From positions 1-64,000 of the forward strand of contig JAKSMX010000002.1 of NCBI GenBank assembly GCA_024400305.1: DNA of 64,000 nt, read 5' to 3'. Each line of letters begins with the position of its first letter. Position 1 is the first letter of the stretch. Below, one piece after another: positions 384 through 23,560 of this stretch. This stretch comes from Bacteroidales bacterium (GTDB lineage: Bacteria > Bacteroidota > Bacteroidia > Bacteroidales > F082). Under the pieces are notes generated by a model. That model searched no databases, had not been told where the DNA came from, and was given only the letters and a program-made list of their open reading frames with translations. A program made the position numbers and the translations under genes.

Positions 384-776
384 ATGAAATACTTGTTTGA
401 CACGAATGTTCTGATATCAATGTTTAAAAATCAGCACGGTGTCCGGGAGAAAATCATTTCGGTCGGCTTTGACTCCTGTTTTGTCAGTGAATTAACCTTG
501 GCGGAACTTTATGTCGGTGCCTATAAAGGCGGAAATCCAAAACAATTAAAGGAGGTCGAATTTGTGAAATCAAACTTTCAAATAATTCCAGACAGCATTG
601 CCATTGAAAGATACGCCAAGGTTCGTGCCGAACTTGAACAATCCGGGAACGTCATCGACAGCATTGATTGTCTGATTGGCAGCACAGCATTGGAATGTGG
701 TTTCACAATGGTCACAAACAACAGAAAACACTTTGAGCGAATACCGAACATTAAAATTGAAGATTGGCAAAAGTGA
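384..776 (+). CDS. vapC: PIN-domain ribonuclease toxin, VapC-like
   Basis: This 130-residue protein has the length and order of motifs of VapC toxins, Mg-dependent endoribonucleases that usually cut tRNA or rRNA. The acidic PIN residues are visible: D6 in LFDTN, E41 in LAELY, D92/D95 in VIDSIDCLIGS, and N112 in VTNNRKHF, where many relatives have Asp. It is translated 4 bp after the antitoxin and presumably co-transcribed with it. The frame is intact, so the toxin may be active. Its last 60 bp are part of a repeat found again near 22.95 kb, where only the tail of the toxin survives. Confidence 0.85.
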   Translation: MKYLFDTNVLISMFKNQHGVREKIISVGFDSCFVSELTLAELYVGAYKGGNPKQLKEVEFVKSNFQIIPDSIAIERYAKVRAELEQSGNVIDSIDCLIGSTALECGFTMVTNNRKHFERIPNIKIEDWQK

Positions 777-921
777 TTCAACATTATGCGTATTTCGCCG
801 AGAACACGCCGTTTTTGAGACAAGAGACTCTATACCCCGTATTTGCAAACGTATTCGGGAGCAATGTCAATCGCAACCTTATCATCTTGATATTCAGCAT
901 GGAAATGCAGCGAATCATGGC
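717..921. repeat. Repeat copy A shared with the 22.95-23.51 kb patch
   Basis: Bases 717-874 match 22951-23107 with about a dozen differences. Bases 875-921 match 23462-23508. The 354 bp that separate the two blocks in the second copy are absent here. The repeat covers the end of vapC, the following spacer, and parts of DUF2442 and DUF4160 on the other strand. Copy A is therefore a deletion derivative of the longer arrangement. Confidence 0.85.
830..921 (-). pseudogene. Remnant of DUF4160 joined to DUF2442
   Basis: On the minus strand the frame reads HFHAEYQDDKV, then directly AIDIAPEYVCKYGV and a stop. The first piece matches the middle of the intact DUF4160 protein at 23303-23560, and the second matches the C-terminus of the DUF2442 protein at 23063-23302. 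The missing 354 bp are exactly 118 codons, so the two remnants were joined in frame. There is no plausible start or N-terminus for the DUF4160 part, so this is called a relic. Confidence 0.7.
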
Positions 922-922
922 C

Positions 923-1018
923 GGCAACTGCCAGATGCTTTGCCGCGAGTGCAACCGCAGGAAGTCGGGGGATGATACGACAGCCCAAGAAGAACTGGCG
1001 CACTACAACGCGAGATTT
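923..1018 (+). pseudogene. Remnant of an HNH endonuclease C-terminus
   Basis: The plus frame reads GNCQMLCRECNRRKSGD, which looks like the last helix and CxxC(N) metal-knuckle of HNH nucleases (usual form NxQxLCxxCNxxKG). Nothing recognisable as the rest of an HNH domain precedes it, because the sequence upstream belongs to the DUF4160 remnant. It is best read as a fragment left where two foreign pieces met. The match is short, so confidence is limited. Confidence 0.4.
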
Positions 1019-1042
1019 CTCAACAAGTGCGCCAGCCTCTCT
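995..1042. repeat. Hairpin with GCGCCAGCC arm
   Basis: CTGGCGCAC (995-1003) and GTGCGCCAG (1027-1035) are perfect 9 bp inverted arms, followed by CCTCTCT. A hairpin with the same 3' arm and tail (TGCGCCAGCCTCTCT) occurs at 51541-51576. It may act as a terminator between the convergent units here, but no clear T-run is seen. Confidence 0.5.
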
Positions 1043-1055
1043 CATCTCTCATCTA

Positions 1056-1475
1056 TTATTTCTCATCTTCATCTTCCCAGTCTTCCGGCATCGGTTCAGC
1101 CCAGTCCTCGTCGTAGAACTCCTCGCCCACCAGCTCTTTGTCGGACTTGTCCTGACCGCCGAGCATCTGGCGCATTATCTTCGAGGGGATTGGCAGAATC
1201 TGTCCTTCGGGACCCGCCGGCACCGCGATTCCGATCTTGTCCTCATCGAGCTCGCGTGTCCAGCCGATGAACTCGGCGAGGCTCATGTTGGCGACGGTGT
1301 AGTCGGCCCAGTCGTCGCAGATGCTGGTTTTTGCGTCGTCTTCGGTGGCGTAAACCGCGACGTATGAGTTCTCGCTTCCGTCTTCAAGCATCGCAAAAAG
1401 GCCCGGTTTGGCTTCAAGGAGCCACAACATTCCGTTTTCGTTGATTGTCTGTAAAAATCTCTGTAGTTCTTCCAT
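1056..1475 (-). CDS. DUF2750-like protein
   Basis: A 139-residue, very acidic protein. The order of features resembles DUF2750 proteins: an N-terminal helix, a segment on wasting or monitoring type repeats (LWLLEAKPGLFAMLEDG), an acidic middle with SLAEFIGWTRELDEDKIGIA, then a P-rich strand (PAGPEGQILPIPSKI). The tail is almost all Asp, Glu and Trp. The function of the family is unknown. It starts 2 bp after the RhuM stop on the same strand, so the two are probably co-transcribed. Being cytosolic is inferred from the lack of signal or membrane segments. Confidence 0.55.
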   Translation of the reverse strand: MEELQRFLQTINENGMLWLLEAKPGLFAMLEDGSENSYVAVYATEDDAKTSICDDWADYTVANMSLAEFIGWTRELDEDKIGIAVPAGPEGQILPIPSKIMRQMLGGQDKSDKELVGEEFYDEDWAEPMPEDWEDEDEK

Positions 1476-1477
1476 AG

Positions 1478-2488
1478 TTATTTATTTCCTTTACTATTTT
1501 TCTTTGCCAATTTCGCGACTTCATTAATGGTCTGCAGATATGCTTCCTCCACAGGACTAACGGTGTTCGCAACGAACTTCTTATACTCTTCATTAGCCTT
1601 TTCCATCGCTGCAATGTGACTTACAGTGCCGGATCCAGTAAGCAGTTGTCTTCCATTAGAAGAGAGTATGGTATCAAGTTGCTGAATGTAATCGTGCATA
1701 TACATCGGTTTGTGTTCTATGGCACTGATTTCGGCAAAATCAAAATATCCCGAAACAAGGTTGTTCAGTATTTTTAGTTCAGTTTCTGAAAGATAATTTT
1801 TCGCCACCGATATATCTTTCTTTGTCGGATAGCCGCCAGAAAAAGACAAAAGACCCATAAAAGGCTTTTCTGCATTGGCACGTTCATATATCAATTCGGC
1901 TGCTGTATGTCCGTGCGCCGCAAAATGCAATTTGTTTTGCACTATTTTGAAAAATTCTATCGACTCGTCAGCCTTTGGGTTATAATCAACACTCGTGGCA
2001 TAGAGGTCAAGAACCTGACGGTAAAGCACTTTCTCTGATGAACGAATATCGCGGATACGATTCAACAACTCATACCAATAATTTCCGCTGCCATTACCCT
2101 TAAGTCGCTGGTCGTCAAGTGTGAAGCCTTTAATCAGATATTCATGAATACGCCGAGTTGCCCATTGACGAAATTGCGTTCCACGAAGAGACTTCACACG
2201 ATAACCAACCGAGATAATTACATCAAGATTATAATATGTAATCTCGTAGCTTCGTTCTCGTGTATCAGGTACGAATGCAAATTTTGCACTTGTACTTTCC
2301 TGTAACAGTTCACCCTCTTTGTAAACATTTTGTATATGACGCGTTATCACAGATTTATCACGCTGAAATAACTCAGCCATCTGCTCTTGCGTCAGCCAGA
2401 CCGTTTCATCTTCAAATTTAACGTCAATTTTCGTAAGTCCGTCATTAGTCTGATAGATTACAATTTCACCTTTGTTTTGATTTTCCAT
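1478..2488 (-). CDS. RhuM family protein
   Basis: 336 residues with the full layout of RhuM proteins, first described from a Salmonella pathogenicity island and since found widely in accessory regions. The N-terminal block is typical: VKFEDETVWLTQEQMAELF, RDKSVITRHIQNVYKEGEL, then YYNLDVIISVGYRVKS and GTQFRQWATRRIHEYLIKGF, an arrangement that suggests DNA binding. The C-terminal half (about 190-310) holds HGHTAAELIYERANAEKPFM, which resembles the Fic/Doc-associated part of some relatives. The biochemical role is not established. Its neighbours are toxin-antitoxin relics, which fits an accessory island. Confidence 0.8.
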   Translation of the reverse strand: MENQNKGEIVIYQTNDGLTKIDVKFEDETVWLTQEQMAELFQRDKSVITRHIQNVYKEGELLQESTSAKFAFVPDTRERSYEITYYNLDVIISVGYRVKSLRGTQFRQWATRRIHEYLIKGFTLDDQRLKGNGSGNYWYELLNRIRDIRSSEKVLYRQVLDLYATSVDYNPKADESIEFFKIVQNKLHFAAHGHTAAELIYERANAEKPFMGLLSFSGGYPTKKDISVAKNYLSETELKILNNLVSGYFDFAEISAIEHKPMYMHDYIQQLDTILSSNGRQLLTGSGTVSHIAAMEKANEEYKKFVANTVSPVEEAYLQTINEVAKLAKKNSKGNK

Positions 2489-2518
2489 GTTTCAAAATTT
2501 TGATTATTACTATGATTC

Positions 2519-4375
2519 TTATATTTCATCCAATTCCAGCCATCTTAACTCCTTCTCGTCAAGCAAATCGTTTATTTCGTTCAGACGTTTGCCGATTTTG
2601 TCAATCTCCTGATAATCAGTCTGATTTTCAAGTCTTGCTGTAAGTTCTATCTTTTCGTTTTCGAGGTTTTCGATGTCGATGGCAAGTTGTTCATATTCTT
2701 TCTGTTCCTTGAACGAGCGTTTCCTGTTGCGCTCGGTCGCGGAAGGGCGGTTTTCGCGGGTATCGACTTTCGCCGCCGCCTGAATCTTATGTTCTTCTTT
2801 TGATTTCTCAACGAGCCACTCGTGATATTGCGAATAATTTCCCATGAAGCCTTTCACCTTGCCTTCGCCTTCAAAGACGAAGAGCTGGTCAACGGTCTGG
2901 TCGAGGAAATAGCGGTCGTGCGAGACGACGATAAGGCAGCCTTTATAGTCTTTCAAGAAATCTTCAAGTTTCTGCAACGTCAAGATATCCAGGTCGTTAG
3001 TCGGCTCGTCGAGGATGAGGAAGTTCGGGTTACTCATCAGTATCGTGAGCAGGTAGAGTCTCCTTTTCTCGCCGCCGCTCAGCAGCGACACCGGCTGGCG
3101 GTGCATGGTGTAAGGGAACATGAAATGCGCAAGGAGCTTGTCGGCGGTATATACACAGTCTTTTCCGTAGTGGACGACCTCGGCGATGTTGCGGATTGTG
3201 TCGAGCACGGTCATGCTTTCATCGAACTTGATGCCGCCTTGGGTGTAATAGCCGTAAACGACGGTCTGCCCTGTTGTTATCGTGCCAGAGTCGCATGGTT
3301 CGTTGCCGGTGATCATATTCAGGAACGTGGATTTGCCGATGCCGTTTTTCCCGACTATCCCGATGCGTTCGCCGCGTTTGAAGATATAATCGAAGTCTTT
3401 GAGGATAAACGTATTATCGTATTTTTTCGTAACGTTGTGCATCTCAAGGATCATTCCGCCGAGGCGTTGCATATCGACACCGAACTGAATCTCGGTGTGG
3501 TCGCGAATCATCTTGGCTTTCTCCTTGAGGTCGTAAAACGCATCAATGCGGGCGCGGGCCTTGCCGGTGCGGGCCTGCGGGGTGGCGCGTATCCATTCCA
3601 GTTCATGCTTCACCATCTGCCCTGCCTTCTCCGCGGCGATGCGTTTGTTTTCCTCACGTTCGCGGCTCTTCCTGACGTAATAATCGAAGTTCCCGTTGTG
3701 CGTATAGACGACTCCGTGATACATCTCCAGAATCTTATTGCACACTCTGTCAAGGAAATAGCGGTCGTGAGTGACCATGAAAAGCGTGACGTTCGACTGT
3801 GTGAGGTAGTTTTCGAGCCATTCCACCATCTGCATGTCGAGATGGTTTGTCGGCTCGTCGAGAAAAAGCATGTCGGGGTCATCGAGAAGCACCATAGCCA
3901 AGGCGAGGCGTTTCACCTGTCCGCCAGACAGCGTCCCGACTTTCTGGCTCAAGTCGTTGATTTCAAAAGTGGAGAGGAGCTGTTTCAGGCGAAGCTCGTA
4001 GTCCCACGCCTGGTTCGCGTCCATCGCCGCCATCGCTTTCTCAAGATTCATCTGATTCACAAGTGCTTCCTCGTAGTTTCTGATGACGCGCATGATGTCG
4101 GTGTGGCCTGTTGAGATGACGTCTTCGATGGTTAGATTCGGGTCGAATTGCGGGAGTTGTTCGAGATAGCCGACACGGACGCCTTCGTTGAAAGCGATTT
4201 TACCGCCGTCGGCTTCTTCTTTCCCGACGAGGATACGCATCATCGTGCTTTTGCCGGTGCCGTTGGCGGCGATTAATGCGGTCTTGTCGCCTTTATCGAT
4301 ACCGAAAGAGAGGTTTTCGAATAACAGCTTGTCACTGAATGCCTTGGATAAATTTTCAACTGAAAGGTAATTCAT
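2519..4375 (-). CDS. ABC-F family ATPase, Uup-like
   Basis: 618 residues with two ABC ATPase domains and no membrane segments, the hallmark of ABC-F proteins, which act on ribosomes. The first domain has Walker A AANGTGKST (36-44), signature LSGGQVKRLALA and Walker B LFLDEPTNHLD. The second has GKNGIGKST, LSGGEKRRLYLL and LILDEPTNDLD. Between them is the Arg/Lys-rich linker (ARTGKARARIDAFYDLKEK). A charged coiled coil occupies about residues 560-618, as in Uup, where it binds branched nucleic acid. Whether this is Uup or another ABC-F subtype cannot be settled by eye. Confidence 0.9.
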   Translation of the reverse strand: MNYLSVENLSKAFSDKLLFENLSFGIDKGDKTALIAANGTGKSTMMRILVGKEEADGGKIAFNEGVRVGYLEQLPQFDPNLTIEDVISTGHTDIMRVIRNYEEALVNQMNLEKAMAAMDANQAWDYELRLKQLLSTFEINDLSQKVGTLSGGQVKRLALAMVLLDDPDMLFLDEPTNHLDMQMVEWLENYLTQSNVTLFMVTHDRYFLDRVCNKILEMYHGVVYTHNGNFDYYVRKSREREENKRIAAEKAGQMVKHELEWIRATPQARTGKARARIDAFYDLKEKAKMIRDHTEIQFGVDMQRLGGMILEMHNVTKKYDNTFILKDFDYIFKRGERIGIVGKNGIGKSTFLNMITGNEPCDSGTITTGQTVVYGYYTQGGIKFDESMTVLDTIRNIAEVVHYGKDCVYTADKLLAHFMFPYTMHRQPVSLLSGGEKRRLYLLTILMSNPNFLILDEPTNDLDILTLQKLEDFLKDYKGCLIVVSHDRYFLDQTVDQLFVFEGEGKVKGFMGNYSQYHEWLVEKSKEEHKIQAAAKVDTRENRPSATERNRKRSFKEQKEYEQLAIDIENLENEKIELTARLENQTDYQEIDKIGKRLNEINDLLDEKELRWLELDEI

Positions 4376-4401
4376 TTTTTAACACAAGTTTCACAAGTTT
4401 T

Positions 4402-4716
4402 TTAGTTGCTTTCTTCGTCCAATGCCTCAATCAGAAAGCTGACAGGCCGGAAGCCGTCGTTGCATGAAATCATCGCCGACTTCTCGTTTTTCATCCAGCC
4501 GTCATAGAAATTCTTGCCGCCATGCGCCAGCGTCATCACGAAAGGCGACATGACTTCCCATGCGCTCTCGCACAATCCTTCAGGACGCTGCCATCCGTTG
4601 GCAATGAACACTTTACCTTCAACCAAATCGCAGGCGTGTTCAATAGGATTCTCATATTTCTCCATCAAGTCCTTGTAGCAGGCCTTGCGGATAACGGTGA
4701 TTTTGACTTTCTTCAT
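4402..4716 (-). CDS. TIGR04076 family protein
   Basis: 104 residues starting at MKKVKITVIRK. The in-frame start further upstream at 4821 would lie before the promoter box at 4735-4742, so the internal Met at 4716 is preferred. Conserved family features are visible: the KITVIRKACYKDLMEKY start, a Cys-rich middle (HACDLVEGKVF, GLCESAWEVMSPFV) and the HGGKNFYDGWMKN / SCNDGFRPVSF end. The function is unknown; the conserved Cys residues suggest metal or redox chemistry, but that is a guess. Confidence 0.75.
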   Translation of the reverse strand: MKKVKITVIRKACYKDLMEKYENPIEHACDLVEGKVFIANGWQRPEGLCESAWEVMSPFVMTLAHGGKNFYDGWMKNEKSAMISCNDGFRPVSFLIEALDEESN

Positions 4717-4734
4717 AAACAATATTTTAAGTTG

Positions 4735-4742
4735 CAAAAATA
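4735..4742 (-). promoter_or_regulatory. -7 box of the TIGR04076 gene
   Basis: On the minus strand the sequence is TATTTTTG, a full match to TAnnTTTG, 18 bp upstream of the chosen ATG. It decides the start, because it lies inside the longer reading frame. Confidence 0.6.
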
Positions 4743-4877
4743 ATAAAAAAAAAGAAGTTGACAGGTTCAGATAAAGTGGAATTATTAGTTTTACGTTCCA
4801 AATGATTGACAAGCAACGCACTGACGAAAAACCATTAATTCAGAAAAGCCACGCCCCATGACAAAATAAATTCTGAT

Positions 4878-5579: not shown

Positions 5580-5636
5580 ACATTACATTATTGTCAGCGA
5601 CATTAGCAAATGTTCAGCACAAGGTGCCAAAGCAGC

Positions 5637-7400
5637 TTAACTGAACATTTTTTCAATAAGGTCGCCATATTTCTCCATCACGACTTTTCTCTTCACCTTC
5701 AACGTAGGTGTCATGATGCCGTTAGCGATAGACCATTCGTCTGCGACGAGTTCGTATCTCTTGATTTTTTCAACTTCACCGAGGCCTTCATTAAGAAGTT
5801 TCACTTCTTTTGCATAACGTTTCATAACAAGTTCATTATGAATCATTTCCTCGTTTGTAGTATATTTTATAAGGTGTCTCTTGCACCATTCCTTAAGGAA
5901 AACAAAATCCGGGCGAATCAAAGCGGCGGCGTATTTCTGGCTTTCGCCGAGCACGACGATTTGCTCAATGAACCCCGAATTGATGAATTTCCCTTCGATC
6001 ACGTCTGGATTGATATATTTTCCAAGAGATGTCTTGAAGAGATTCTTTTTTCTTCCAGTGATGAAAAGCAGTCCGTGCTCGTCGAAATGACCGAGGTCGC
6101 CAGTATGGAACCAGCCGTCCTTGTCGATGACTTCCGCTGTGAGTTCCGGCTGTTTGTAATAGCCCATCATGACGTTATGGCCGCGGCAGATGATCTCGCC
6201 TGTCTCATCTATTTTCACTTCGACGCCAGGAAGCGGTCTGCCCACAGCTCCCACTTCCCTGCCATATTTTCCTCTCGCGCTCACCGCAATGACAGGCGAA
6301 GTTTCAGTAAGGCCGTAGCCTTCAAAGACAGGCATTTTTATTGCCGAGAAGAATCCGCTTGTCTTCTTCGTTATTGAAGCGGCTCCGGAAACGATAATAT
6401 CGAAGTTTTCGGCACCGAGTTTTGTACGTATCTTACTGTAAACCAACTTGTCAGCGATTTTCAATTTGATGTCATATATTTTGGAACGATTCTCGATTCT
6501 GTATTTTTCGGTAAGACCCATCGCCCAATAGAAGATGGCTTTCGAAAGTCCTTTCATGTTCTTTCCTGATCCATAGATCTTCTCATAGAATTTTTCAAGG
6601 ACACGAGGCACGGCGCACATCATCGTGGGATGAATCTCCTGCATGTTGTCGGCTATGGTCGCAATGCTTTCCGCATAATATATCGACATGCCAAGATAGT
6701 GATACATATAGATTAATGCGCGTTCGTAAGCGTGGCATATCGGCAGGAAACTGAACGCCTTCTTCGACCACGGAGCCGGAGTCTGACAGAAATTCTTGAA
6801 CTGGCTCATCAGGTTACGATGAGAAAGCATCACGCCTTTTGGGACTCCTGTCGTACCTGAAGTGTAAATTATTGTTGCGCAAGACATTTCGTCGACGGAG
6901 GCTTTCCGCTGTTCAATTTCTTCAGTATGAGGATGTTCCTTGCCGAGTTCGATGAGATTTGCGAAAAACGGATAATTGCCTCTCTCCACAAAAGTGTAAA
7001 TGCTCTTAAGTGTCGGGGTTTCCGGCTTGATAGCCTCTATTTTGTTAAGCACCGCGATGCCTTCGAGAATACAGATTCCAGCTTCGCAATTGTTCAAAAT
7101 GACCTTGTAATCCTCCTCACTGATTGTCGGGTAGATTGGAACCATGATCGCTCCGATCTGCGTGATCGCCATGTCGAGCATGTTCCATTCCGGGCGGTTG
7201 CTGCATATAACGGCAATCTTATCCTGTGGTTTGACACCTAATTCAATGAAAGCCCCGCTGAGAATATTTGTCAGTTCAATATATTCATCAATGCTGTATT
7301 CGCGCCATTTACCATTACTTTTTCCGGCGAGAGCCACTTTCTGGTCAGGGTAATGTTCCTTGTAATATGGCAGCAAATCAAAAACTCTTTTAACTTCCAT
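5637..7400 (-). CDS. Long-chain acyl-CoA synthetase (AMP-forming), copy 2
   Basis: 587 residues of the ANL superfamily: it activates fatty acids to acyl-AMP and then acyl-CoA. The P-loop TIIYTSGTTGVPKGV, the GYGLTETSP motif, GDLGHFDEHGLLFITGRKKN and the C-terminal lysine region (TPTLKVKRKVV) are all present. It has the same length as the gene just upstream and is clearly its tandem duplicate. The 19 bp gap and shared strand point to one operon, driven from the promoter near 9.22 kb. The substrate chain length cannot be told from sequence; the two copies may differ in this. Confidence 0.9.
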   Translation of the reverse strand: MEVKRVFDLLPYYKEHYPDQKVALAGKSNGKWREYSIDEYIELTNILSGAFIELGVKPQDKIAVICSNRPEWNMLDMAITQIGAIMVPIYPTISEEDYKVILNNCEAGICILEGIAVLNKIEAIKPETPTLKSIYTFVERGNYPFFANLIELGKEHPHTEEIEQRKASVDEMSCATIIYTSGTTGVPKGVMLSHRNLMSQFKNFCQTPAPWSKKAFSFLPICHAYERALIYMYHYLGMSIYYAESIATIADNMQEIHPTMMCAVPRVLEKFYEKIYGSGKNMKGLSKAIFYWAMGLTEKYRIENRSKIYDIKLKIADKLVYSKIRTKLGAENFDIIVSGAASITKKTSGFFSAIKMPVFEGYGLTETSPVIAVSARGKYGREVGAVGRPLPGVEVKIDETGEIICRGHNVMMGYYKQPELTAEVIDKDGWFHTGDLGHFDEHGLLFITGRKKNLFKTSLGKYINPDVIEGKFINSGFIEQIVVLGESQKYAAALIRPDFVFLKEWCKRHLIKYTTNEEMIHNELVMKRYAKEVKLLNEGLGEVEKIKRYELVADEWSIANGIMTPTLKVKRKVVMEKYGDLIEKMFS

Positions 7401-7419
7401 GTCAAAAAAATATTTCTTA

Positions 7420-9183
7420 TTAGCTAAATAATTTCACTATAACATTTTCATATTTCATCATCACCACCCTTCGCTTCACTTTGAGAGTCGGGGTGAGAAT
7501 GCCGTTCTGGACGGTCCATTCGTCGGCGATGAGTTCAAATCTTTTTATTTTCTCGACTTCACCGAGCGATTCGTTAAGATATTTCACCTCCTTGCCGATG
7601 CGCTTGATGACATTTTCGTTATGAATCATCTCCTCTGGTGTCGTGAATTTGATATTATGTTTCTTGCACCATTGTTTCAGGAAGTTGAAGTCGGGATGAA
7701 TTATGGCAGCGGCGAATTTCTGGTTTTCGCCGAACACCACGATATTCTCTATGAAACCTGAATTAAGGAATTTGCCTTCGATGAGATCGGGGTTGATGTA
7801 TTTTCCGAGCGATGTCTTGAACAGGTTTTTCATCCTGCCGGTGATTTGCAGGAGGCCGTGTTCGTTGAAACGTCCGAGGTCGCCGGTATGGAGCCAGCCG
7901 TCCTTGTCGATGACTTCGGCTGTGAGTTCCGGGTGTTTGTAATAGCCCATCATGACGTTATGGCCGCGGCAGATGATTTCGCCTTCGTCGGTGATTTTCA
8001 CTTCGACGCCCGGAAGCGGTTCTCCCACGTAACCGACTTCGCGACCGTATCTGTTCCTCGTGCTCACCGTGATGACCGGCGACGTCTCCGTCAAGCCGTA
8101 GCCTTCAATCAAAGTGATGCCGATGGCCGAGAAGAACCCGCTGACATGCTTGGATATCGCAGCGGCGCCGGAGACGATGATATCAAGCTTATCCATTCCG
8201 ATTTTCTCGCGTATCTTTCTGAAAACCAACTTATTTGCAAGTTTCAATTCGAGGTTATAGAATTTCGTGCGGCCTTCAATCCTGTAATATTTCGTAAGAT
8301 CCATCGCCCAATAGAAAATCATCCTGTTGAGACCTTTCAGGCTTCTGCCCGAATTATATATTTTGTCATAGAACTTTTCGAGGATTCTCGGCACGGCACA
8401 CATCATGGTCGGACGGATCTCAAGCATGTTGTCGGCAATAGTAGCCAGATTTTCGGCGTAATAGATTGACATTCCGAGATAATGATACATGTAGATGAGT
8501 GCGCGTTCGTAAGCGTGGCACATCGGCAGGAAGCTGAACGCCTTGTTCGACCACGGCTTCGGCGTGTGGCAGAATCCCTTGAACTGACTCATCAAGTTCT
8601 TGTGCGACAACATCACGCCCTTCGGCATCCCAGTCGTACCGGAAGTGTAAATGATTGTTGCGCAGTCTGTCTCCTTCACTTCCGCCTTACGTCTCTCAAT
8701 CTCTTCAGTATGAGGATGTTCCCTGCCTAATTCTATGAGATTTTCCAAGAAAGGATATTTGTCTCTATTGACAAAAGTGTATATTTTCTTCAATGAAGGT
8801 GTTTCAGGCAAAATCGATTCGATCTTGTTCATCACGACACTGCCTTCAAGAATGCAGATCTCCGCTTCGCAATTATTCAGAATTATTTTGTAGTCCGCCT
8901 CGCTGATGGTAGGATATATCGGCACCATGACGGCACCAATCTGAGTGATTGCCATGTCGAGCATATTCCATTCAGGACGGTTTCCTGAAATGACGGCGAT
9001 TTTGTCTTGAGGCTTCACCCCGAGTTCAATGAGTGCGCCGCTGAGAATATTTGACAAATCAATATATTCATCGATGCCATATTCGCGCCATCTGCCGTTT
9101 TGTTTTGCTGCAAGGGCCACTTTCTGATTCGGAAACTTTTCCTTGTAGTGCGGCAACAAATCAAAAACTCTTTTTACTTCCAT
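7420..9183 (-). CDS. Long-chain acyl-CoA synthetase (AMP-forming), copy 1
   Basis: 587 residues with the same motifs as its downstream twin: TIIYTSGTTGMPKGV, GYGLTETSPVI, HTGDLGRFNEHGLLQITGR and the C-terminal PTLKVKRRVV. The two proteins align end to end without gaps that can be seen. It is the promoter-proximal gene of the pair. There is no signal peptide, so both act in the cytosol or on the inner face of the membrane. A 90 bp stretch (7894-7983) is almost identical in DNA to 6111-6200 of the other copy. Confidence 0.9.
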   Translation of the reverse strand: MEVKRVFDLLPHYKEKFPNQKVALAAKQNGRWREYGIDEYIDLSNILSGALIELGVKPQDKIAVISGNRPEWNMLDMAITQIGAVMVPIYPTISEADYKIILNNCEAEICILEGSVVMNKIESILPETPSLKKIYTFVNRDKYPFLENLIELGREHPHTEEIERRKAEVKETDCATIIYTSGTTGMPKGVMLSHKNLMSQFKGFCHTPKPWSNKAFSFLPMCHAYERALIYMYHYLGMSIYYAENLATIADNMLEIRPTMMCAVPRILEKFYDKIYNSGRSLKGLNRMIFYWAMDLTKYYRIEGRTKFYNLELKLANKLVFRKIREKIGMDKLDIIVSGAAAISKHVSGFFSAIGITLIEGYGLTETSPVITVSTRNRYGREVGYVGEPLPGVEVKITDEGEIICRGHNVMMGYYKHPELTAEVIDKDGWLHTGDLGRFNEHGLLQITGRMKNLFKTSLGKYINPDLIEGKFLNSGFIENIVVFGENQKFAAAIIHPDFNFLKQWCKKHNIKFTTPEEMIHNENVIKRIGKEVKYLNESLGEVEKIKRFELIADEWTVQNGILTPTLKVKRRVVMMKYENVIVKLFS

Positions 9184-9324: not shown

Positions 9325-11505
9325 TTAAATGAGATGGAATGCGACTGTGAGACCAGCCATGACGATTGACACCATGCTCATAAGCTTGATAAGGATGTTC
9401 AATGACGGGCCTGATGTGTCTTTGAACGGGTCACCGACAGTGTCGCCGACGACGGTAGCCTTGTGATTGTCAGAACCCTTGCCACCGAAGTTGCCTTCTT
9501 CAACATATTTCTTTGCATTGTCCCATGCTCCGCCTGCGTTAGCCATGAAGACTGCGAGTACGAAGCCGCATGAGAGGCCGCCGATGAGAAGTCCGAGGAC
9601 GCCAGGGACACCAAGGATGAGACCTGTCGCGATTGGAACAACGATTGCGAGGACAGAAGGGACAAGCATTTCGTGCTGTGCACCCTTTGTTGAAATCTCA
9701 ACGCAGCGTTCGTAGTCAGGTTCCGCCTTGCCTTCGAGGATGCCCTTGATTGTTCTGAACTGACGACGCACTTCCTCCACCATCTTCTGTGCCGCACGGC
9801 CGACGGCGTTCATCGTCATTCCGCAGAACACGAATGCCATCATCGCGCCGATGAACACGCCGACGAGGACGATCGGGTTCATGAGATTGACATTATAAGC
9901 TTCCATGAAGTCAACGAGGGTAGCCTTTGCAGCTTCGACACCGTTCGGGAGATCTTGACCGACACGAATCAGAGCGATCTTAATTTCCTCGACGTATGAG
10001 GCGAGGAGTGCGAGTGCTGTGAGAGCCGCCGAGCCGATGGCGAAGCCCTTACCTGTAGCCGCCGTAGTGTTGCCGAGAGCGTCGAGGGCGTCGGTGCGTT
10101 TGCGGACTTCAGGGTCGAGGCCGCTCATCTCGGCGTTGCCGCCCGCGTTGTCGGCGATAGGGCCGTAAGCGTCTGTAGCGAGTGTGATGCCGAGCGTCGA
10201 GAGCATGCCGACAGCGGCGATACCGATGCCATAGAGACCCATTGAAAGGTTCTGTGCGTTGAACTCAACATTGAAGCCGTTTGCGCAGAGGTAAGCGAGG
10301 ATGATTGCCACGCCCACTGTCACAACCGGGATCGCTGTCGAAAGCATACCGAGACCGAGACCGGAGATGATGACTGTCGCAGGGCCTGTCTTTGAGCTTT
10401 CAGCGACTTTCTGTGTCGGTCTGAAAGTCTGTGATGTATAGTATTCCGTTGATTTACCGATGATTACGCCAGCGAGAAGACCGACAACGACAGAGAATGA
10501 GATGCCGACCCAATTCTCGATTCCGAGTGCCCAGAAAATAACGAATGTGGCGATTGCGATAAGCACTGAGCTTGTGTTTGTGCCGCGGCTTAAAGCACCG
10601 AGGAGCTGTTTCATGCCGGCACCCTCTTTTGTCTTAACTAAAAAGATACCGATTAGTGAGAGCAACACGCCGACCGCTGCGATGAGCATCGGGGCGAACA
10701 CAGCCTTGAGCTGCATGCCTTCAACCGCTGACGTGGCAAAAGCCGAGGCGCCGAGAGCTGCCGTGGCGAGGATTGAACCTGCGTATGACTCATAAAGGTC
10801 GGCGCCCATGCCGGCGACGTCACCGACGTTGTCACCGACATTGTCAGCGATTGTCGCAGGGTTACGCGGGTCGTCTTCAGGGATGTTGTATTCTGTCTTT
10901 CCGACGAGGTCAGCGCCGACGTCAGCGGCTTTTGTGTAGATACCGCCACCGACACGTGCGAACAAAGCCTGTGTCGAGGCACCCATGCCGAAAGTCAGCA
11001 TTGTAGTCGTAATGATGACAAGATGATTTTCCGCTGGGATGAAATGATCGAGGACCAAAAACCACACGCTGATGTCGAGCAATGCGAGACCGACGACGGT
11101 GAGTCCCATGACGGCACCGGAGCGAAATGCTACCTGAAGGCCGTCATTCAACGACTTACGCGCCGCATTGGCTGTACGAGCCGAAGCGTAAGTGGCGGTT
11201 TTCATTCCGAAGAAACCTGCCAAACCTGAGAAGAAACCGCCGGTTAGGAATGCAAACCACACCCAGCCGTTCTGGAGGCCGAATATCGACATCACGCCGA
11301 ATATGGCGGCCAAGATGACAAACACGATGATGACCACTTTGTATTGCTGTTTCAAATAAGCCATCGCACCTTTTCTCACGTACAATGCGATCTTTTTCAT
11401 CAAATCTGTTCCCTCATCTTCCTTCAGCATCCGCTTGTAGAAATAAAAAGCGAATCCCAAAGCCAATACAGATGCTGCGAGAACCAAGTAAATTACGTTT
11501 TCCAT
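9325..11505 (-). CDS. hppA: Membrane-bound ion-pumping pyrophosphatase, K+-dependent type
   Basis: 726 residues with about 16 membrane helices. It hydrolyses pyrophosphate and exports H+ and/or Na+. The substrate motif DVGADLVGK is at 195-203, followed by [19 protein letters not shown], and the C-terminal [17 protein letters not shown] motif is intact. The segment [10 protein letters not shown] (478-487) has Ala in the position that is Lys in K+-independent enzymes, so it belongs to the K+-dependent branch. Na+ versus H+ specificity depends on the position of a membrane Glu and cannot be settled here. Bacteroides relatives include enzymes that move both ions. Confidence 0.95.
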
Positions 11506-14367: not shown

Positions 14368-14378
14368 TAAACGTACAT

Positions 14379-14931: not shown

Positions 14932-14993
14932 GCCCAAACCAAAAACTGCTGACGCATCTTGTGTTGCGCCAGCAGTTTTGATTTGGGTTTTAG
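14932..14993. terminator. Bidirectional terminator between folA and the C10 protease gene
   Basis: AAAACTGCTG (14942-14951) pairs with CAGCAGTTTT (14970-14979), extended inward by CGCA/TGCG and outward by CCCAAA/TTTGGG. T-runs on both sides suit both converging genes. Confidence 0.75.
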
Positions 14994-15023
14994 TTTAAAT
15001 TCAGTTTAGATTTCCGTCAGAGA

Positions 15024-17585: not shown

Positions 17586-17644
17586 TTTTGTTGTAATTTA
17601 ATTTATTATTACTGTGATTTGATTTTTCAAAAAATTTAAACGTG

Positions 17645-17652
17645 CAAATTTA
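17645..17652 (-). promoter_or_regulatory. -7 box of C10 protease copy 1
   Basis: The minus strand reads TAAATTTG, a full consensus match, 60 bp upstream of the start codon. Confidence 0.55.
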
Positions 17653-17698
17653 TAAAAAAATATGTAACTACAGTGACTAAAATTCACATTTTTATTAA

Positions 17699-17728
17699 TA
17701 AAAAAAGGACGGCTCGCAAACCGTCCTT
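17699..17728 (-). terminator. Terminator of C10 protease copy 2
   Basis: AAGGACGG (17705-17712) and CCGTCCTT (17721-17728) form a perfect 8 bp stem. On the minus strand it is followed by a run of T, 20 bp after the stop codon of copy 2. Confidence 0.85.
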
Positions 17729-17748
17729 CACTATTTGGAGAAAAAATT

Positions 17749-20022
17749 TTAATCAATGACAGAAACTTTCTGGGTCATCATGCCGTTTTCAGTCTCAATC
17801 CTGATCATATAAACGCCGTTACCAAACTGTTTCACATCAATAACATATTGATTTTCATTGACATTCTGTTCAAAGACTTTCTGTCCTACAACATTGAAGA
17901 CCGAGACATTATTGATTGATTCGGCTTCAATCATGATGACACCGTTTGTCGGGTTAGGATAGATTCGTGCGTTGATTTCATTTTCCTCGACGGCGAGGAC
18001 TTCAACCTGAACGTAGTCATTGTCATCGGCGGTGATTGCCGGTGTTGACTCGCAGAATGAGTTGAAAGCTGTCACTTGATAGAAATATGTGTTCACATCG
18101 TCAACTGCGTCGAAATATTCGCGGAGTGTGTTTTCGATCTTGGCAATCTCTTCATATTCAACGCCATCGACACTTCTGTAAATCTTGAAGTTCTGAGGTT
18201 CGTAGTCGCAAGTCCAAGTGAGGCGTGCGCCGTCGTGTCCATCCTGATATGCGTATTCACCGGCGAGATTCTCCGGGCTTGTGCAGCTCTCGCAGTCGTT
18301 GTCGCCGGAATAAATCGTTCCGTTGATTTGCGTCGATGAGCCTGAGAAGTTGTAAACCTGTGTGTTAGCAGAATTTTTCAATGAGATTGACATTGTGGCG
18401 ACCGCTGTGGCAGGCTGGTTCCAAACCAATGAGAAATCGCCTCCCGGCATCTGGAATTTCTCGCTTAATGGCGATGAGCTTGTCATTGTAACTTCCTCGA
18501 TGACAACACCTTCATTGTTTTTCACCTGAAGAAGTCCACCGTTCCAGCCTTGGAAGTTCGATGTCGTGCAGACGAGTTTCCACGTGCAGTTAGGACCGTA
18601 AATCACAGTTAATTTTGACGTTTCGCCAACGTAATTGTTGTTATATCCGCAAAGTGAATATTCGTAAGCACCGAAATCATTCACTTGATCTTCATAAACC
18701 AATGTCTCACCTGGTGTAGGGTTATTAAAGGTCTTGATAATCTGATTATTACGTCTCAATTCCATCTTTTCTATTGATGTAAGCGGGTCGCCCGACATGG
18801 AGACCGCAGGAACCGTGAATGTCACGATGCCGGTCTTTGTCAAGGTGTTTTCAATTTCAACATCGAAGTCCTCAACTACCGGTATGAGTACATTGTAGAT
18901 ATAATCAGGAATCATGTTCACGATGACTCTCTGGTTGAGGTTGAAGGTGCCGTTCATGGTGTTCAACGCATCGATTGCGAAAAAGCCGTCGCACCAGCCG
19001 CTCCAGCCCCAGTTGAAGTGGAACTTGCGCTGTGCGTCGTATCCATCGCAGTTGAACGCATGTCCCATCTGCTCGTCGGTGCCGGCATAAGCCGCCGGAT
19101 ACCCGCGGTCAAACTGGTCAATCAGAATGTCTTCCCATGCCGTTTTCGTATATGATTCACGTGAGAGTATCTCTGTGGCGGAGCAATACTTGAAGTAGTT
19201 TTTCGCCGCATCCACGACCTTATACGTCTGAGAGCCGCTGCCATCGTAATTGAAATCCATATCGACCGACACGCCGCAGTGGTACATGAGGAGTGCTATA
19301 GCCTGCGGGCTGCCGCTCGGGATGGTGTTAGGCATGTTGCTCCAGTTGTATGTAGTCTCGCCGAAGTTAGCCGACAATGTTCCGCCGACAGTGCTTGTGC
19401 TGTATGAATGTTCACCGACACCCTGGTCAGGCCAGCTCCAGAACCTCATCACCTGACTCATTGACGTGGCGACGCAACCGGCGTAGCAACGGCCGCCCGG
19501 ACCGTAATTATGAGCCGGAGCGTAATAGTTATAAGGATAATCCTGGTTCCATCTTGTGGTGATAAGCGGATTCACGATACGGTCCATCCTTGTTCTCGAA
19601 GTGATGCCTTCTGTGCGGAGAAGTTCCCATTGCTCGGCAATTTCTTCTTCTGCAACAAAGTCATTTTCAATAGCATACTGAATCTCATCGCTGTAATGGC
19701 CGAGATAATATACAAGACCTTCCGGAAGATGGTTCACATCGAAAATGCTCTCTTCCGAATATGCGAGGATAGGATAAGCGCGGTCGTCGGCAGCGACAAT
19801 AACATAACCGTTTTCGTAGTTGAAAACATAAAGGCTCGGAATGCCGTTGTCGCCAGACACTGTGTAAACATGGTCAACATCAGTGATTGACTTGGCGGAT
19901 GCCACATTGTTTTTCAAATAGCTCACTCCGAGTTTCTTCGCCGTCGCGACATCAACCGGAGCCGCGAACATCTGTCCCGCAAAAACGAGCAGGGCAACGA
20001 CTGTCAGTAAAAATCTTTTCAT
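17749..20022 (-). CDS. C10 family cysteine protease with type IX sorting domain, copy 2
   Basis: 757 residues with the same plan as its neighbours: signal peptide (1-20), inhibitory propeptide, protease domain with Cys183 (YAGCVATSMSQVMRFW) and His321 (MGHAFNCDGYDAQ), and HFNWGWSGWCDGFF. A single fibronectin-like unit and a GWNGG module follow, then another fibronectin-like unit and the sorting domain (IYPNPTNGVIMIEAES to QKVSVID). It begins only 11 bp after the stop of copy 3, so the two are probably one transcript. All catalytic residues are intact. Confidence 0.9.
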   Translation of the reverse strand: MKRFLLTVVALLVFAGQMFAAPVDVATAKKLGVSYLKNNVASAKSITDVDHVYTVSGDNGIPSLYVFNYENGYVIVAADDRAYPILAYSEESIFDVNHLPEGLVYYLGHYSDEIQYAIENDFVAEEEIAEQWELLRTEGITSRTRMDRIVNPLITTRWNQDYPYNYYAPAHNYGPGGRCYAGCVATSMSQVMRFWSWPDQGVGEHSYSTSTVGGTLSANFGETTYNWSNMPNTIPSGSPQAIALLMYHCGVSVDMDFNYDGSGSQTYKVVDAAKNYFKYCSATEILSRESYTKTAWEDILIDQFDRGYPAAYAGTDEQMGHAFNCDGYDAQRKFHFNWGWSGWCDGFFAIDALNTMNGTFNLNQRVIVNMIPDYIYNVLIPVVEDFDVEIENTLTKTGIVTFTVPAVSMSGDPLTSIEKMELRRNNQIIKTFNNPTPGETLVYEDQVNDFGAYEYSLCGYNNNYVGETSKLTVIYGPNCTWKLVCTTSNFQGWNGGLLQVKNNEGVVIEEVTMTSSSPLSEKFQMPGGDFSLVWNQPATAVATMSISLKNSANTQVYNFSGSSTQINGTIYSGDNDCESCTSPENLAGEYAYQDGHDGARLTWTCDYEPQNFKIYRSVDGVEYEEIAKIENTLREYFDAVDDVNTYFYQVTAFNSFCESTPAITADDNDYVQVEVLAVEENEINARIYPNPTNGVIMIEAESINNVSVFNVVGQKVFEQNVNENQYVIDVKQFGNGVYMIRIETENGMMTQKVSVID

Positions 20023-20033
20023 TTTTTTAATGT

Positions 20034-22085
20034 TTAGTTATTATTTATAATTATTTTCTTGGAAATCAAGCCATTAGCAGTTTCTACCGAAATAAGATAC
20101 ACTCCATCGGCAAAACGTTCCGTATCAAGTGTGACTTCATCTTCCCTGACCTGAACATTCACAACTTCCTGACCCACAATGTCATATACTTTAACGTTAT
20201 TCATTCCCTTGGCGGAAATCGTCATCTGGTTTCTGACAGGATTCGGGAAGACATTAAGAGCAGTTGAATTATGCTGGGTCTCTCCGACAGACGTCGTATC
20301 TTGGCACATATTCGTATAGTCGAACAGACGTCCGGCGATCAACGAGTCGGGCGATGAGTACAGCAGTTCGTCGTTGGCGTCGTATATATTAAAGGAGATT
20401 TCATCTTCAGTGTAATAGTCTCCGCTGAACCATGCCTTGTTCCAGATGAAGGTGAGGTCGCCCTGGAGCATCGGGACGACACGCGTCTCCGAAGAGCCTT
20501 CCTCCAATGTTATTTTCGCGATGCGCACGCCGTCTCTCGCTATCGAGACCGAGCCGCCTTTCCAGCCGTCGCCGCCTTCATCGTTCAACTCGAAGACAAG
20601 GTCACATTTCGGGCCGACCATGATTCTCTGATAGACAGGAATACTGTAACCATATTGATTATGAACGAGAACCGAATACTCATAGTTGCCGTCTTCATCG
20701 AGTTCATCGGCATAATTCATTGATTCACCGGCTGTTGCATCTGTAAAGCAAGCCACCGTCTCGAAGTTTCTCCTGACGATGACGCTGTCAATCTGTCCGA
20801 GACTTTCGCCAAGCATGTTCTCCGCCGGATTTTTCCAATTTATTGTGACTGAGAAATTGCCGTCCGCATCCGTCTCGTTTTCAACAAGTTCCATATCAAC
20901 GACCTTTGCGGGACGCTGGTAATATTCATCATCAATCGGATAGAAACCCTGAATGACGAGATTGAAGACATTGAAGGCGTATTTTGTAGTGTTGAGTGCA
21001 CCCATCGCACACCATGCGTTGTCTTTTCCGTCCCAGCCCCAGTTGAAGTGGAAATAGTCGTTTTCATCGTAGCCGTCGCAGACGAAAGCGTGACCGCCGC
21101 CGCCACCATCGTCCTGACCTGAATAATACAATGGGCGTCCGAGGTCGAGTTCACTCTTGAGCATCTCGCTGAAGTCATCTTTCCAGTACCAGTCTTTGTA
21201 AAGGACTTCCGCATCCGGGTTGTAGCCGAAATAGCTGCCGATTACATTCGGCACGTCCTCAGAATAGGCGCCGCTGCCGTCGGGTCCGTACATCATCTCC
21301 ACGCCGACGCCGCAGTGCCATTGCAGCTGGGCGATATAGAAAATATCCTCTTCGGTGCTTGTCGAGTCGAGTTGCATGGGCATACGCTCGAAGTTGTAGA
21401 ATGTCTCGCCGAAATTTGCGGTCTGAGTCGGGTAATAAGGATGTCCCCAACCGCCAGGCGTATATGAATGAGAGCCGGTGCCTTGCACGGGATGGTTGAA
21501 ATATTTCATCACCTGCGCCATCGCCGTGGCGACGCAGCCGGCATAGACGTGTCCGCCGCTGCCGCCGCCGTCTGCCGGGCAGAGCGCGTTATACGGGTAG
21601 TTCTGATTCCATAATGTCTCAAGCAAAATCGGCACGGTGCGTGTGTTGCGGACCGCTTTCACGCAGCCGGTCTTTTCGACGCGTGTCCATTCATCGGCGA
21701 TGTCGGCAAGACGCTCAACGTTGTTTTCTCTAATATATTGAATTTCATCGGTATAGCTCTTGACAGTAAGGTTAAAAGCCGGAGCGATGTTTTCCACGCT
21801 GAACGTCCCTTCCGTCGAATAAGCGAGAATCGGCTTCACGCGGTCTTCCGCGGAGACGGCGACGAAACCCGCCCCGCTGACGTTGAAGACATATATATAA
21901 GGTGTACCTTCAGCGTCTGAATAAGTGTAAACAAGTTCCGAAGAAACGCTGCGATCTCTGAACGAAGTGCTTTCCTTCATGAATTTCTCGCCGATGCGCT
22001 GCGCCTTCCTGACATCAACGTTTCCGGCGTAAAGTGTTGAGAATGTAAACGTTGCAATTACTGCAAGTAATAAAAACCTTTTCAT
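20034..22085 (-). CDS. C10 family cysteine protease with type IX sorting domain, copy 3
   Basis: 683 residues, the shortest and first-transcribed of the three. It has a signal peptide (1-20), propeptide, Cys184 (YAGCVATAMAQVMKYF) and His332 (GGHAFVCDGYDEN), with HFNWGWDGKDNAWC. It carries one fibronectin-like unit, a GWKGG module (preceded by LNDEGGDG) and a sorting domain (VFPNPVRNQMTISAKG to KKIIINN). Upstream on the minus strand only a weak -7 box (TAATTTTA) is seen. Divergence in the C-terminal modules compared with the well kept catalytic parts suggests different targets. Confidence 0.9.
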   Translation of the reverse strand: MKRFLLLAVIATFTFSTLYAGNVDVRKAQRIGEKFMKESTSFRDRSVSSELVYTYSDAEGTPYIYVFNVSGAGFVAVSAEDRVKPILAYSTEGTFSVENIAPAFNLTVKSYTDEIQYIRENNVERLADIADEWTRVEKTGCVKAVRNTRTVPILLETLWNQNYPYNALCPADGGGSGGHVYAGCVATAMAQVMKYFNHPVQGTGSHSYTPGGWGHPYYPTQTANFGETFYNFERMPMQLDSTSTEEDIFYIAQLQWHCGVGVEMMYGPDGSGAYSEDVPNVIGSYFGYNPDAEVLYKDWYWKDDFSEMLKSELDLGRPLYYSGQDDGGGGGHAFVCDGYDENDYFHFNWGWDGKDNAWCAMGALNTTKYAFNVFNLVIQGFYPIDDEYYQRPAKVVDMELVENETDADGNFSVTINWKNPAENMLGESLGQIDSVIVRRNFETVACFTDATAGESMNYADELDEDGNYEYSVLVHNQYGYSIPVYQRIMVGPKCDLVFELNDEGGDGWKGGSVSIARDGVRIAKITLEEGSSETRVVPMLQGDLTFIWNKAWFSGDYYTEDEISFNIYDANDELLYSSPDSLIAGRLFDYTNMCQDTTSVGETQHNSTALNVFPNPVRNQMTISAKGMNNVKVYDIVGQEVVNVQVREDEVTLDTERFADGVYLISVETANGLISKKIIINNN

Positions 22086-22147
22086 CTTTTAAAAATATTT
22101 TAGCGTGTAAAATTATAAAAAAAAATCACACAAGGCGTTTTTTTTCG

Positions 22148-22155
22148 TATTTTTG
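22148..22155 (+). promoter_or_regulatory. -7 box of the 22.18 kb gene
   Basis: TATTTTTG, a full match, 22 bp before the GTG start. It supports the short version of the gene over the frame starting at 22052. Confidence 0.55.
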
Positions 22156-22177
22156 CACTTTAAAAATTAGATTTACC

Positions 22178-22648
22178 GTGGATCACAAGTTTTATGATTT
22201 TTACATGCGTTTCCCGAGCAAGGCTGACGCGCTGAAAGCAGAGGATTTTTATTACGAGACACATCGCCCGCGCATCGGCGGCAGGTTCAAGATCAACGAC
22301 AACGGAGTGTGTTCGCTCTCGTTGCAAGACGAGTGCGAGCTTATCACCGACCTCTATCAGTTCGGGATGCGGCGTTTCATCGTGACCGACAACTTCCACG
22401 GCGTGCGCAAGGAACACGGCAAGGACATCTTCGACTTCTTCACCGACAGCGACCGTTACTTCCATTGGGACATGACACCCGACATCTTCGACAAACTCAA
22501 CGACTTCTTAATTAACGAGATACAGAAGGACGGCTACGAACACGCCGATGGCACGCACGCGCCTTTCATCCAGAGGACATTGGACGAGATGGGCATCGAC
22601 GACCTGTTCAACATGCTCAACGTTGACGCGCCGGGATTGGATATTTAA
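22178..22648 (+). CDS. Unrecognised conserved-looking protein
   Basis: 156 residues from a GTG (VDHKFYDFYMRF); a later ATG at 22205 is also possible. The start was chosen because the promoter box at 22148-22155 excludes the longer frame. The protein is acidic and rich in aromatic residues, with no signal peptide or membrane segment. I do not recognise the family. Notable strings are FYYETHRPRIGGRFKIND, ITDLYQFGMRRFIVTDNFHG and FFTDSDRYFHWDMTPDIFDK. It ends immediately before a nuclease relic and is divergent from the C10 proteases. Confidence 0.6.
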   Translation: MDHKFYDFYMRFPSKADALKAEDFYYETHRPRIGGRFKINDNGVCSLSLQDECELITDLYQFGMRRFIVTDNFHGVRKEHGKDIFDFFTDSDRYFHWDMTPDIFDKLNDFLINEIQKDGYEHADGTHAPFIQRTLDEMGIDDLFNMLNVDAPGLDI

Positions 22649-22652
22649 AGAG

Positions 22653-22918
22653 GCAGACGCATCTGCTATCAATATTGCAATGGTTTATACTTATTTTAAA
22701 GTAGGTAGAATTATCGTGGATGACGAGCAGAATGGTAATCCTCATGCCGAATACGGAAAAGAAGTTCTAAAAACCTTTCCGAAAAGTTGACCCAAAAGTT
22801 TGGCAAAGGCTTTTCTGTCACTAATCTTAAGCAAATGAGAGACTTACATCAATCGTACTCAATTGGTCAGACACTGTCTGACCAATTTTGCCAGACAAGC
22901 AAAGCCTCACCAAATTGA
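22653..22918 (+). pseudogene. Broken DUF1016 (YhcG-type) nuclease gene, N-terminal part
   Basis: The sequence reads AINIAMVYTYFKVGRIIVDD, then EEQNGN-like and AEYGKEVLK in one frame, and continues in the next frame as LSEKLTQKFGKGFSVTNLKQ and MRDLHQSYS. These are the usual N-terminal motifs of DUF1016 / PDDEXK nuclease-domain proteins. The frames are separated by what looks like loss of one A in an A-run near 22772. The catalytic C-terminal part is missing and the start codon is lost. The remnant runs to a stop at 22918. Confidence 0.75.
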
Positions 22919-22950
22919 TCCTTGATAAATAAACATCATATAATTCAAAA

Positions 22951-23107
22951 AACAACAGAAAACACTTGAGCGAATACCGAATGTTAAAATTGAAGATTGG
23001 CAAAAATGATTCAACATCATGCGGATTTCGCCGAGAACACGCCGTTTTTGGGACATGAGGCTCTATACCCCGTGTTCGTAAACGTATTCGGGAGCAATGT
23101 CAATCGC
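22951..23107. repeat. Repeat copy B, with a vapC tail remnant
   Basis: This matches 717-874 with about a dozen changes, including a 1 bp deletion (CACTTGAG for CACTTTGAG). The first 59 bp encode the last 19 residues of a VapC like that at 384-776 (NNRKH, then KLKIGKN), now frameshifted and with no body to the gene. The rest overlaps the end of the DUF2442 gene on the other strand. Confidence 0.85.
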
Positions 23108-23302
23108 GCCATCCTCCCATTCCAAAGTGTCGGTGACATTGAATTTTCTGAATGAATCAACATTTTGAAGAGGCTTGAAAACCGGATATTTACGAACTAC
23201 ATCCGTGAAATCCATCTCTTTCACGATTCCATCGTTGAACACGACCCTCAACCGATAGCCGTCAACATATTCAGCTTCCGTGATCTCAAGAAACATAATC
23301 AT
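23063..23302 (-). CDS. DUF2442 protein
   Basis: 79 residues with the DUF2442 pattern: a strand set (YVDGYRLRVVFNDGIVKEMDF), a short helix (VVRKYPVFKPLQNVDSF) and the end (DTLEWEDGAIDIAPEYVYEHG). The family is often found next to DUF4160, as here, and such pairs have been proposed as toxin-antitoxin like; no activity is established to my knowledge. It starts right after the DUF4160 stop, so the two are co-translated. The C-terminal 14 codons have a relic counterpart at 830-874. Confidence 0.85.
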   Translation of the reverse strand: MIMFLEITEAEYVDGYRLRVVFNDGIVKEMDFTDVVRKYPVFKPLQNVDSFRKFNVTDTLEWEDGAIDIAPEYVYEHGV

Positions 23303-23560
23303 TCATTTTAAAGGTTCAATAAATCCCGGCTCTTCACCGGCCGCAGCCCTGTCCCAAGCATCTTTCACTTCATCACGATGGATCTCAAGCCATTCGAAAA
23401 TCAAACGCAACGCTCTCTCCGACATCACGCCCCTCACCTTGCCGTTCTCAATTTCAATCGTAACCTTATCATCTTGATATTCAGCATGGAAATGCGGCGG
23501 ATTATGATCTAAAAAACGGATATATATAATTATACCGAAAAATTTTGATATTTGTGGCAT
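23303..23560 (-). CDS. DUF4160 protein
   Basis: 85 residues from MPQISKFFG. The longer frame to 23605 is rejected because the -7 box lies at 23579-23586. The family signature is clear: FFGIIIYIRFLDHNPPHFHA, then EYQDDKVTIEIENGKVRG and the ERALRLIFEWLEIHRDEV helix. The function is unknown; it is the first gene of the pair with DUF2442. A remnant of its middle survives at 875-921. It is divergent from the LexA-like regulator, with 223 bp between the two start codons. Confidence 0.85.
   Translation of the reverse strand: MPQISKFFGIIIYIRFLDHNPPHFHAEYQDDKVTIEIENGKVRGVMSERALRLIFEWLEIHRDEVKDAWDRAAAGEEPGFIEPLK

Follow-up and report, generated by a model that had tools for sequence, protein, structure and literature searches.

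Two accessory patches in a Bacteroidales genome carry reciprocal remains of a vapC/DUF2442 junction

We analysed a 64,000-bp stretch of DNA from a Bacteroidales bacterium (assembly GCA_024400305.1, contig JAKSMX010000002.1, positions 1 to 64,000; hereafter, the window), in which two accessory patches, located near 0.7 kb (patch 1) and 23 kb (patch 2), feature parts of a vapBC toxin-antitoxin gene pair and of a DUF4160-DUF2442 gene pair. The genome from which the window derives is referred to as G000; other G-numbers denote the compared genomes, and L-numbers denote loci. The patches are found in one genome in the same orientation, 22 kb apart, and a self-BLAST of the window revealed that they share two repeat pieces. 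The first, spanning the 3' end of vapC, a spacer and the 3' end of the DUF2442 gene, maps to 716..874 in patch 1 and to 22950..23107 in patch 2 (92.5% identity over 159 columns, E 2e-60). The second, an internal DUF4160 fragment, maps to 862..919 and 23449..23506 (91.4% identity over 58 columns, E 6e-16). In a first-pass annotation of the window, the repeat had been placed at 717-874/22951-23107 and 875-921/23462-23508, which is correct to within a few bases. The alignment of 384-1060 with 22640-23610, set beforehand as a check, confirmed the repeat, with a top score of 230 bits against 32.8 bits for the best of 200 dinucleotide shuffles.

Patch 1 carries a whole vapC gene (384..776, plus strand), which encodes a 130-residue PIN-domain protein (PF01850, E 6e-16). 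Directly upstream, on the same strand, an open reading frame (ORF) encoding 92 residues (101..379) stops 4 bp ahead of vapC and is regarded as a vapB-like antitoxin gene. This ORF has no match in Pfam or NCBIfam; its relatives were detected by an iterated profile in the stretches around 52 of 77 other VapC loci, and those displayed lie directly upstream of vapC. Residues 1-128 of VapC align with chain 6ifc_A, a VapC tRNA(fMet) endonuclease (E 6e-16). Scores against three NCBIfam VapC models (102.6, 63.8 and 32.2 bits) are all under the corresponding cut-offs (140, 143 and 80 bits), and the protein is a VapC-type PIN protein outside those three named groups. Cleavage of the initiator tRNA is predicted from the names of its solved relatives. 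On the opposite strand, the ORF 830..1045 is made of antisense HNH sequence, residues 18-33 of DUF4160 and, in frame with the latter, the DUF2442 tail from residue 66, as determined by translation and mapping. This fused remnant is presumably a pseudogene.

In patch 2, it is the DUF pair that is whole. The DUF4160 gene (23303..23560, minus strand; PF13711, E 6e-18) encodes a DhiT-like predicted toxin of 85 residues when read from an internal ATG, a start common to most aligned relatives. The predicted fold of the protein, which contains a conserved HNPPHFHA stretch, consists of five strands and a long helix, for which no convincing counterpart was found in the solved structures. The adjacent DUF2442 gene (23063..23302, minus strand; PF10387, E 1e-12) encodes a DhiA-like predicted antitoxin of 79 residues. 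In the compared genome G086, a toxin-like DUF4160 gene with an internal stop adjoins an antitoxin-like DUF2442 gene that is open (locus L102, about 5640-5950). The vapC sequence of patch 2 is limited to a tail (22950..23009, plus strand), identified by alignment with 716-776, which starts at about codon 111, spans approximately the last 20 codons and is frameshifted by a 1-bp deletion.

The two repeat pieces overlap by 13 bp in patch 1 (862-874; common core CAATnTCAATCG), indicating that 354 bp (118 codons) present in patch 2 are missing there, an in-frame deletion. The first-pass annotation had described vapC as whole and the DUF pair as fragments fused in frame at 0.7 kb, and a vapC tail next to a whole DUF pair at 23 kb. 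Both descriptions are borne out by ORFs and Pfam matches, complemented by mapping at the former locus and by alignment at the latter. The view that the two loci complement each other as leftovers of a single arrangement, in which vapC is convergent with DUF2442-DUF4160, is likewise supported by the shared junction and the reciprocal losses. As each patch is intact where the other has decayed, neither can, as it now stands, be derived from the other, and an ancestor in which vapC lay tail to tail against DUF2442 is the simplest inference. Differences at codon positions 1, 2 and 3 number 36, 23 and 84 for vapC (compared with L167), 9, 4 and 40 for DUF2442 (compared with G086) and 19, 12 and 45 for DUF4160 (compared with G050). 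Being concentrated at third positions, they suggest that both surviving pairs have been maintained as proteins.

To what extent the four genes occur together elsewhere was assessed from both sides, by examining DUF loci for vapBC and VapC loci for the DUF pair. DUF4160 is found in 103 of 172 genomes at the family level, and VapC relatives are found in 23 of 172. The DUF4160 sample comprised 110 family loci besides patch 2 and its twin in genome G092 (one in G000 and two in G092), out of at least about 150 places in the family. The VapC sample comprised 77 loci besides that of the window (27 from the family, 49 from the order and one, G000:C67 being among the 77, from a search of genome contigs). 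The order-level picks represent 49 of about 150 VapC matches and 30 of about 150 DUF2442 matches listed, and one of the 30 DUF2442 loci sits at a place also present in the family set. Flanks were examined up to 1.5 or 2 kb, less at contig ends and only 200-400 bp downstream at a few loci, with profiles that cover VapC of the window's group rather than every PIN toxin. A tandem DUF4160-DUF2442 arrangement was recognised by profile at 85 of the 110 family loci, with DUF4160 first in all 85; this is an undercount, as at least one of the remaining 25 loci (G000:C34) has a Pfam DUF2442 match.

Within these stretches, no vapB- or vapC-like ORF was found near DUF4160 (0/110 family loci), vapBC of the window's group was not found beside DUF2442 (0/30 order-level loci), and neither DUF2442 nor DUF4160 was found in the flanks of VapC (0/77 loci). 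At the DNA level, the vapC/DUF2442 junction was detected in only two of 173 family genomes, G000 and G092. In the order-level search it was detected only in G000 among 393 genomes, the listed part of that draw not showing G092; two other matches, of 22 and 24 bases, are chance-like. In a visual comparison of the matches listed, the smallest distance between a VapC and a DUF2442 gene on one contig, outside G000 and G092, was 7.4 kb (G435:C51). The first ORFs downstream of 83 DUF pairs, which were chosen by length and some of which may not be genes (two of the 85 pairs had none), most often match the Pfam families of phosphotransacetylases (8), phosphoenolpyruvate carboxykinases (6) and glycosyltransferases (5). 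RuvC, RecG and Card1 rank lower, and no PIN family is present among the 25 of 75 families listed.

No plasmid match to DNA 300-1100 was found. At the level of protein presence only, VapC-like proteins occur in 2464 plasmid records, all at less than 60% identity, and DUF2442-like proteins in three. Among viral contigs, VapC has no relatives and DUF2442 has two; a DUF4160 gene adjoins DUF2442 in one of the two, and vapBC was found by profile in neither. A search of the literature retrieved no report of a link between vapBC and dhiTA, the DUF4160-DUF2442 system discussed below; DUF2442 and VapC are mentioned together in a table of marine toxin-antitoxin annotations, in the portion of that source available. 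Since, apart from the single patch of G092, the pairing was found at no other locus examined, the arrangement likely reflects ordinary gene turnover, and not a four-gene system.

Patch 2 occupies a slot between conserved neighbours. On the left, the slot is bordered by a gene at 22190..22648 (plus strand), which is conserved in the G045 and G088 alignments and has no Pfam or NCBIfam match; on the right lies a helix-turn-helix/S24-peptidase-type regulator identified by Pfam (23784..24590, plus strand). The flanks are 83-92% identical to those of G045 and G088, while the slot content differs: the shared flank stops at 22649 (G045) or 22667 (G088), and in either genome it starts again at 23663. 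The G045 slot contains genes for a Schlafen/AlbA protein, two DUF1016/YhcG proteins and an EcoRI-type methyltransferase, a small gene, and a GmrSD-HNH-type gene recognised by motif. Comparison with G045 also revealed that the window retains a DUF1016/YhcG remnant (22664..22942, plus strand), in which a 5' piece (22664-22887) is joined to the 3' end of the gene and its flank, with a gap of some 645 bp in between when set against G045; the vapC tail follows directly. The remnant is 88-90% identical to the intact G045 gene, in which DUF1016 is recognised by Pfam. A near-perfect palindrome at 22861-22887, at the edge of the gap, has reverse-strand matches in several relatives.

The nearest relative, G092, carries the same patch 2, including the vapC tail, with 97.5-100% identity per 200 bp (22601-23600). 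Identity is 86-99% in the 2 kb to the left and 78.5-93% in the 2 kb to the right. The drop to the right of the patch suggests that patch 2 was recently exchanged between the two species. Patch 1 was not seen in G092, and the 23 family genomes in which VapC was matched do not include this relative. At the position corresponding to 916 of the window, G092 carries a type II restriction enzyme, a cytosine methyltransferase and DUF1016 sequence.

At that position, patch 1 contains the 3'-end remnant of a GmrSD_N (DUF262)-HNH gene (916..970, plus strand; PF01844, E 0.0045, below cut-off). A long ORF ending in the same HNH-end motif was found at 19 of 27 relatives' loci scanned, and for one of these, L045, Pfam confirmed both GmrSD_N and HNH. 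Short remnants of this type of 3' end occur in three genomes (window, about 916-970; L097, about 9490-9548; L103, 12593-12643) and at two positions, namely the patch-1 position in the window and G092, and the patch-2 slot in G088. Exchange may occur preferentially at this conserved HNH end. Next to patch 1, genes for a DUF2750 protein (1056-1475) and a RhuM-family protein (1478-2488) are adjacent; the two are also found together in G086 and G087 (L040 and L041).

On its left, patch 1 adjoins an insertion sequence inside which the contig starts. The right end of this element (1..54) includes a terminal inverted repeat of 22 bp (31-52), and vapB begins less than 50 bp further on. The same end is present at nine places in five relatives (G045, G085, G086, G088 and G092); it adjoins a transposase-like gene in L042, L107 and L108, for which Pfam hits are weak and below cut-off, and the inverted repeat is found at both ends of one copy (L044). 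A TTTG motif within the insertion-sequence end (41-44) is located 21 bp ahead of TATCTTTG at 66-73, upstream of vapB. By the Bacteroides promoter consensus, the insertion sequence may supply a -33 box for vapBC. Elsewhere in the window, self-BLAST detected two gene-sized tandem copies that are 75% identical (5666-7400 and 7449-9183) and a direct repeat of 76 bp without mismatches (48662-48737 and 48804-48879).

We consider it probable that both patches stem from one ancestral patch in which two independent toxin-antitoxin pairs were neighbours by chance, and that reciprocal losses occurred by deletions at short matches. In the ancestral patch, vapBC and the DhiTA-like pair would have stood side by side, tail to tail. 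The junction would have been present in two accessory slots, or delivered to them by copying or import. Patch 1 would then have lost 354 bp at the short overlap and been truncated at the HNH remnant, while in patch 2 deletion as far as the DUF1016 flank would have removed vapB and the greater part of vapC. A causal role of short matches is suggested by the overlap at the 354-bp deletion; at the other breakpoints the picture is less clear. Each survivor would work alone, VapBC as a PIN toxin, predicted to cut tRNA, and its antitoxin, and the DhiTA-like pair as a DUF4160 toxin, predicted to inhibit growth, and a DUF2442 antitoxin. The repeat is thus likely to be mostly an ordinary outcome, the reciprocal decay of two independent toxin-antitoxin pairs of known kinds in accessory slots.

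Several points weigh against this reconstruction. Evidence for the ancestral adjacency comes from two degraded copies in G000 and one copy in G092, and no intact four-gene neighbourhood was found in the genomes examined. The counts cover part of the DUF4160, DUF2442 and VapC matches and one VapC group, and close relatives in the protein database (P0002, DUF2442, 91% identical; P0012, DUF4160, 92% identical) fall outside them. The patch copies differ by about 8%, and patch 2 differs by about 1% between G092 and G000, values that fit an old split, an import or uneven decay alike. Finally, breakpoints may show short overlaps through chance alone.

The first-pass annotation had named two findings that would undo the linked module: the lack of any other genome with all four genes together, which is the outcome obtained at the loci examined, and a recent local duplication without a functional link. 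Such a duplication, with one patch serving as the template for the other inside this lineage, would agree with their location in the same genome, in the same orientation and 22 kb apart. Yet each patch has intact material that is absent from the other, so neither is the source in its present form, and the decayed patch 2 is already present in G092, where patch 1 was not seen. The divergence of about 8% between the copies, compared with about 1% between G000 and G092, also argues against a recent local copy, an argument tempered by the possible exchange of patch 2 between these species. We therefore regard a recent local duplication as very unlikely. A separate import, in which vapBC and the DUF scraps of patch 1 came from a relative independently of patch 2, perhaps helped by the neighbouring insertion sequence, is a tentative possibility, and represents one version of the copying step in the preferred reconstruction, with which it is compatible. 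The proximity of vapB to the insertion-sequence end speaks for such an import, as do the lack of any match to the vapBC DNA in other family genomes (173-genome search) and the closest VapC found, which is 68% identical and belongs to Candidatus Scybalocola fimicaballi. Against it, no donor locus was found, and the contig ends inside the insertion sequence, leaving the far side outside the contig.

A functional explanation, that the four genes form one linked module in which the DUF pair is a partner of, or an immunity factor for, VapBC, would account for a junction found twice in G000 and once in G092. It is highly improbable: the pairing was absent from every other locus of the three samples, the partner has been lost from both surviving copies, and the DUF pair is reported as a stand-alone toxin-antitoxin system in Dickeya and Thermus (PMC8198452 and PMC12724237, in the parts available). 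The linked or mobile four-gene unit proposed in the first-pass annotation is accordingly not supported. There is a slim chance that VapBC and the DhiTA-like pair were inherited as one block, a lineage-restricted double-addiction element: freed from one toxin, the cell could let the corresponding pair decay, each copy being held in place by the other pair; if true, such an element would yield two opposite survivors in one genome. With two pairs that were neighbours by chance, as we prefer, the window shows that the everyday gain and loss of genes in accessory slots can leave behind a striking repeat of gene fragments. Two pairs surviving reciprocally from a single junction would, on a small scale, document in nature how toxin-antitoxin pairs outlast their neighbours.

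Like known accessory and defence-gene slots, the patch-2 slot lies between conserved neighbours and varies in content; it differs from them in being reduced to gene scraps and the DUF pair. VapBC systems of the tRNA(fMet)-endonuclease group (PDB 6ifc, 3tnd and others) share with the window the PIN domain and an antitoxin-like gene directly upstream, and differ in that the window VapC falls under the cut-offs of the three NCBIfam models it matches and its antitoxin gene lacks a family match.

The DUF4160-DUF2442 pair corresponds to dhiTA, described as a type II toxin-antitoxin system in Dickeya dadantii 3937, in which the toxin inhibits growth of E. coli, the antitoxin neutralises it and the operon is autoregulated (PMC8198452, available text). 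In Thermus plasmids, a DUF4160-DUF2442 pair is described as a persistence-enhancing module that raises persistence; a plasmid lacking the second gene alone gave no Thermus transformants, and neither deletion plasmid affected E. coli (PMC12724237, available text). In the accessible parts of the two reports, vapBC is not mentioned alongside either pair. The window pair has the same two Pfam domains, adjacent genes and the reversed gene order, with the toxin gene first. In contrast, its DUF4160 protein scores 61.3 bits against a cut-off of 100 for DhiT (NF048015), and its DUF2442 protein 33.3 bits against a cut-off of 200 for DhiA (NF048016), and for this reason we call the pair DhiTA-like, and not a DhiTA equivalog. 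Of the two roles that the first-pass annotation had offered for the DUF pair, that of a second toxin-antitoxin set is favoured as a prediction, whereas that of an immunity factor to VapC is not supported. Given the resemblance to the stand-alone dhiTA, no vapBC partner is needed and the immunity idea becomes unnecessary. The comparison ties DUF2442 and DUF4160, which are annotated as genes of unknown function, to a recently described toxin-antitoxin family in this lineage.

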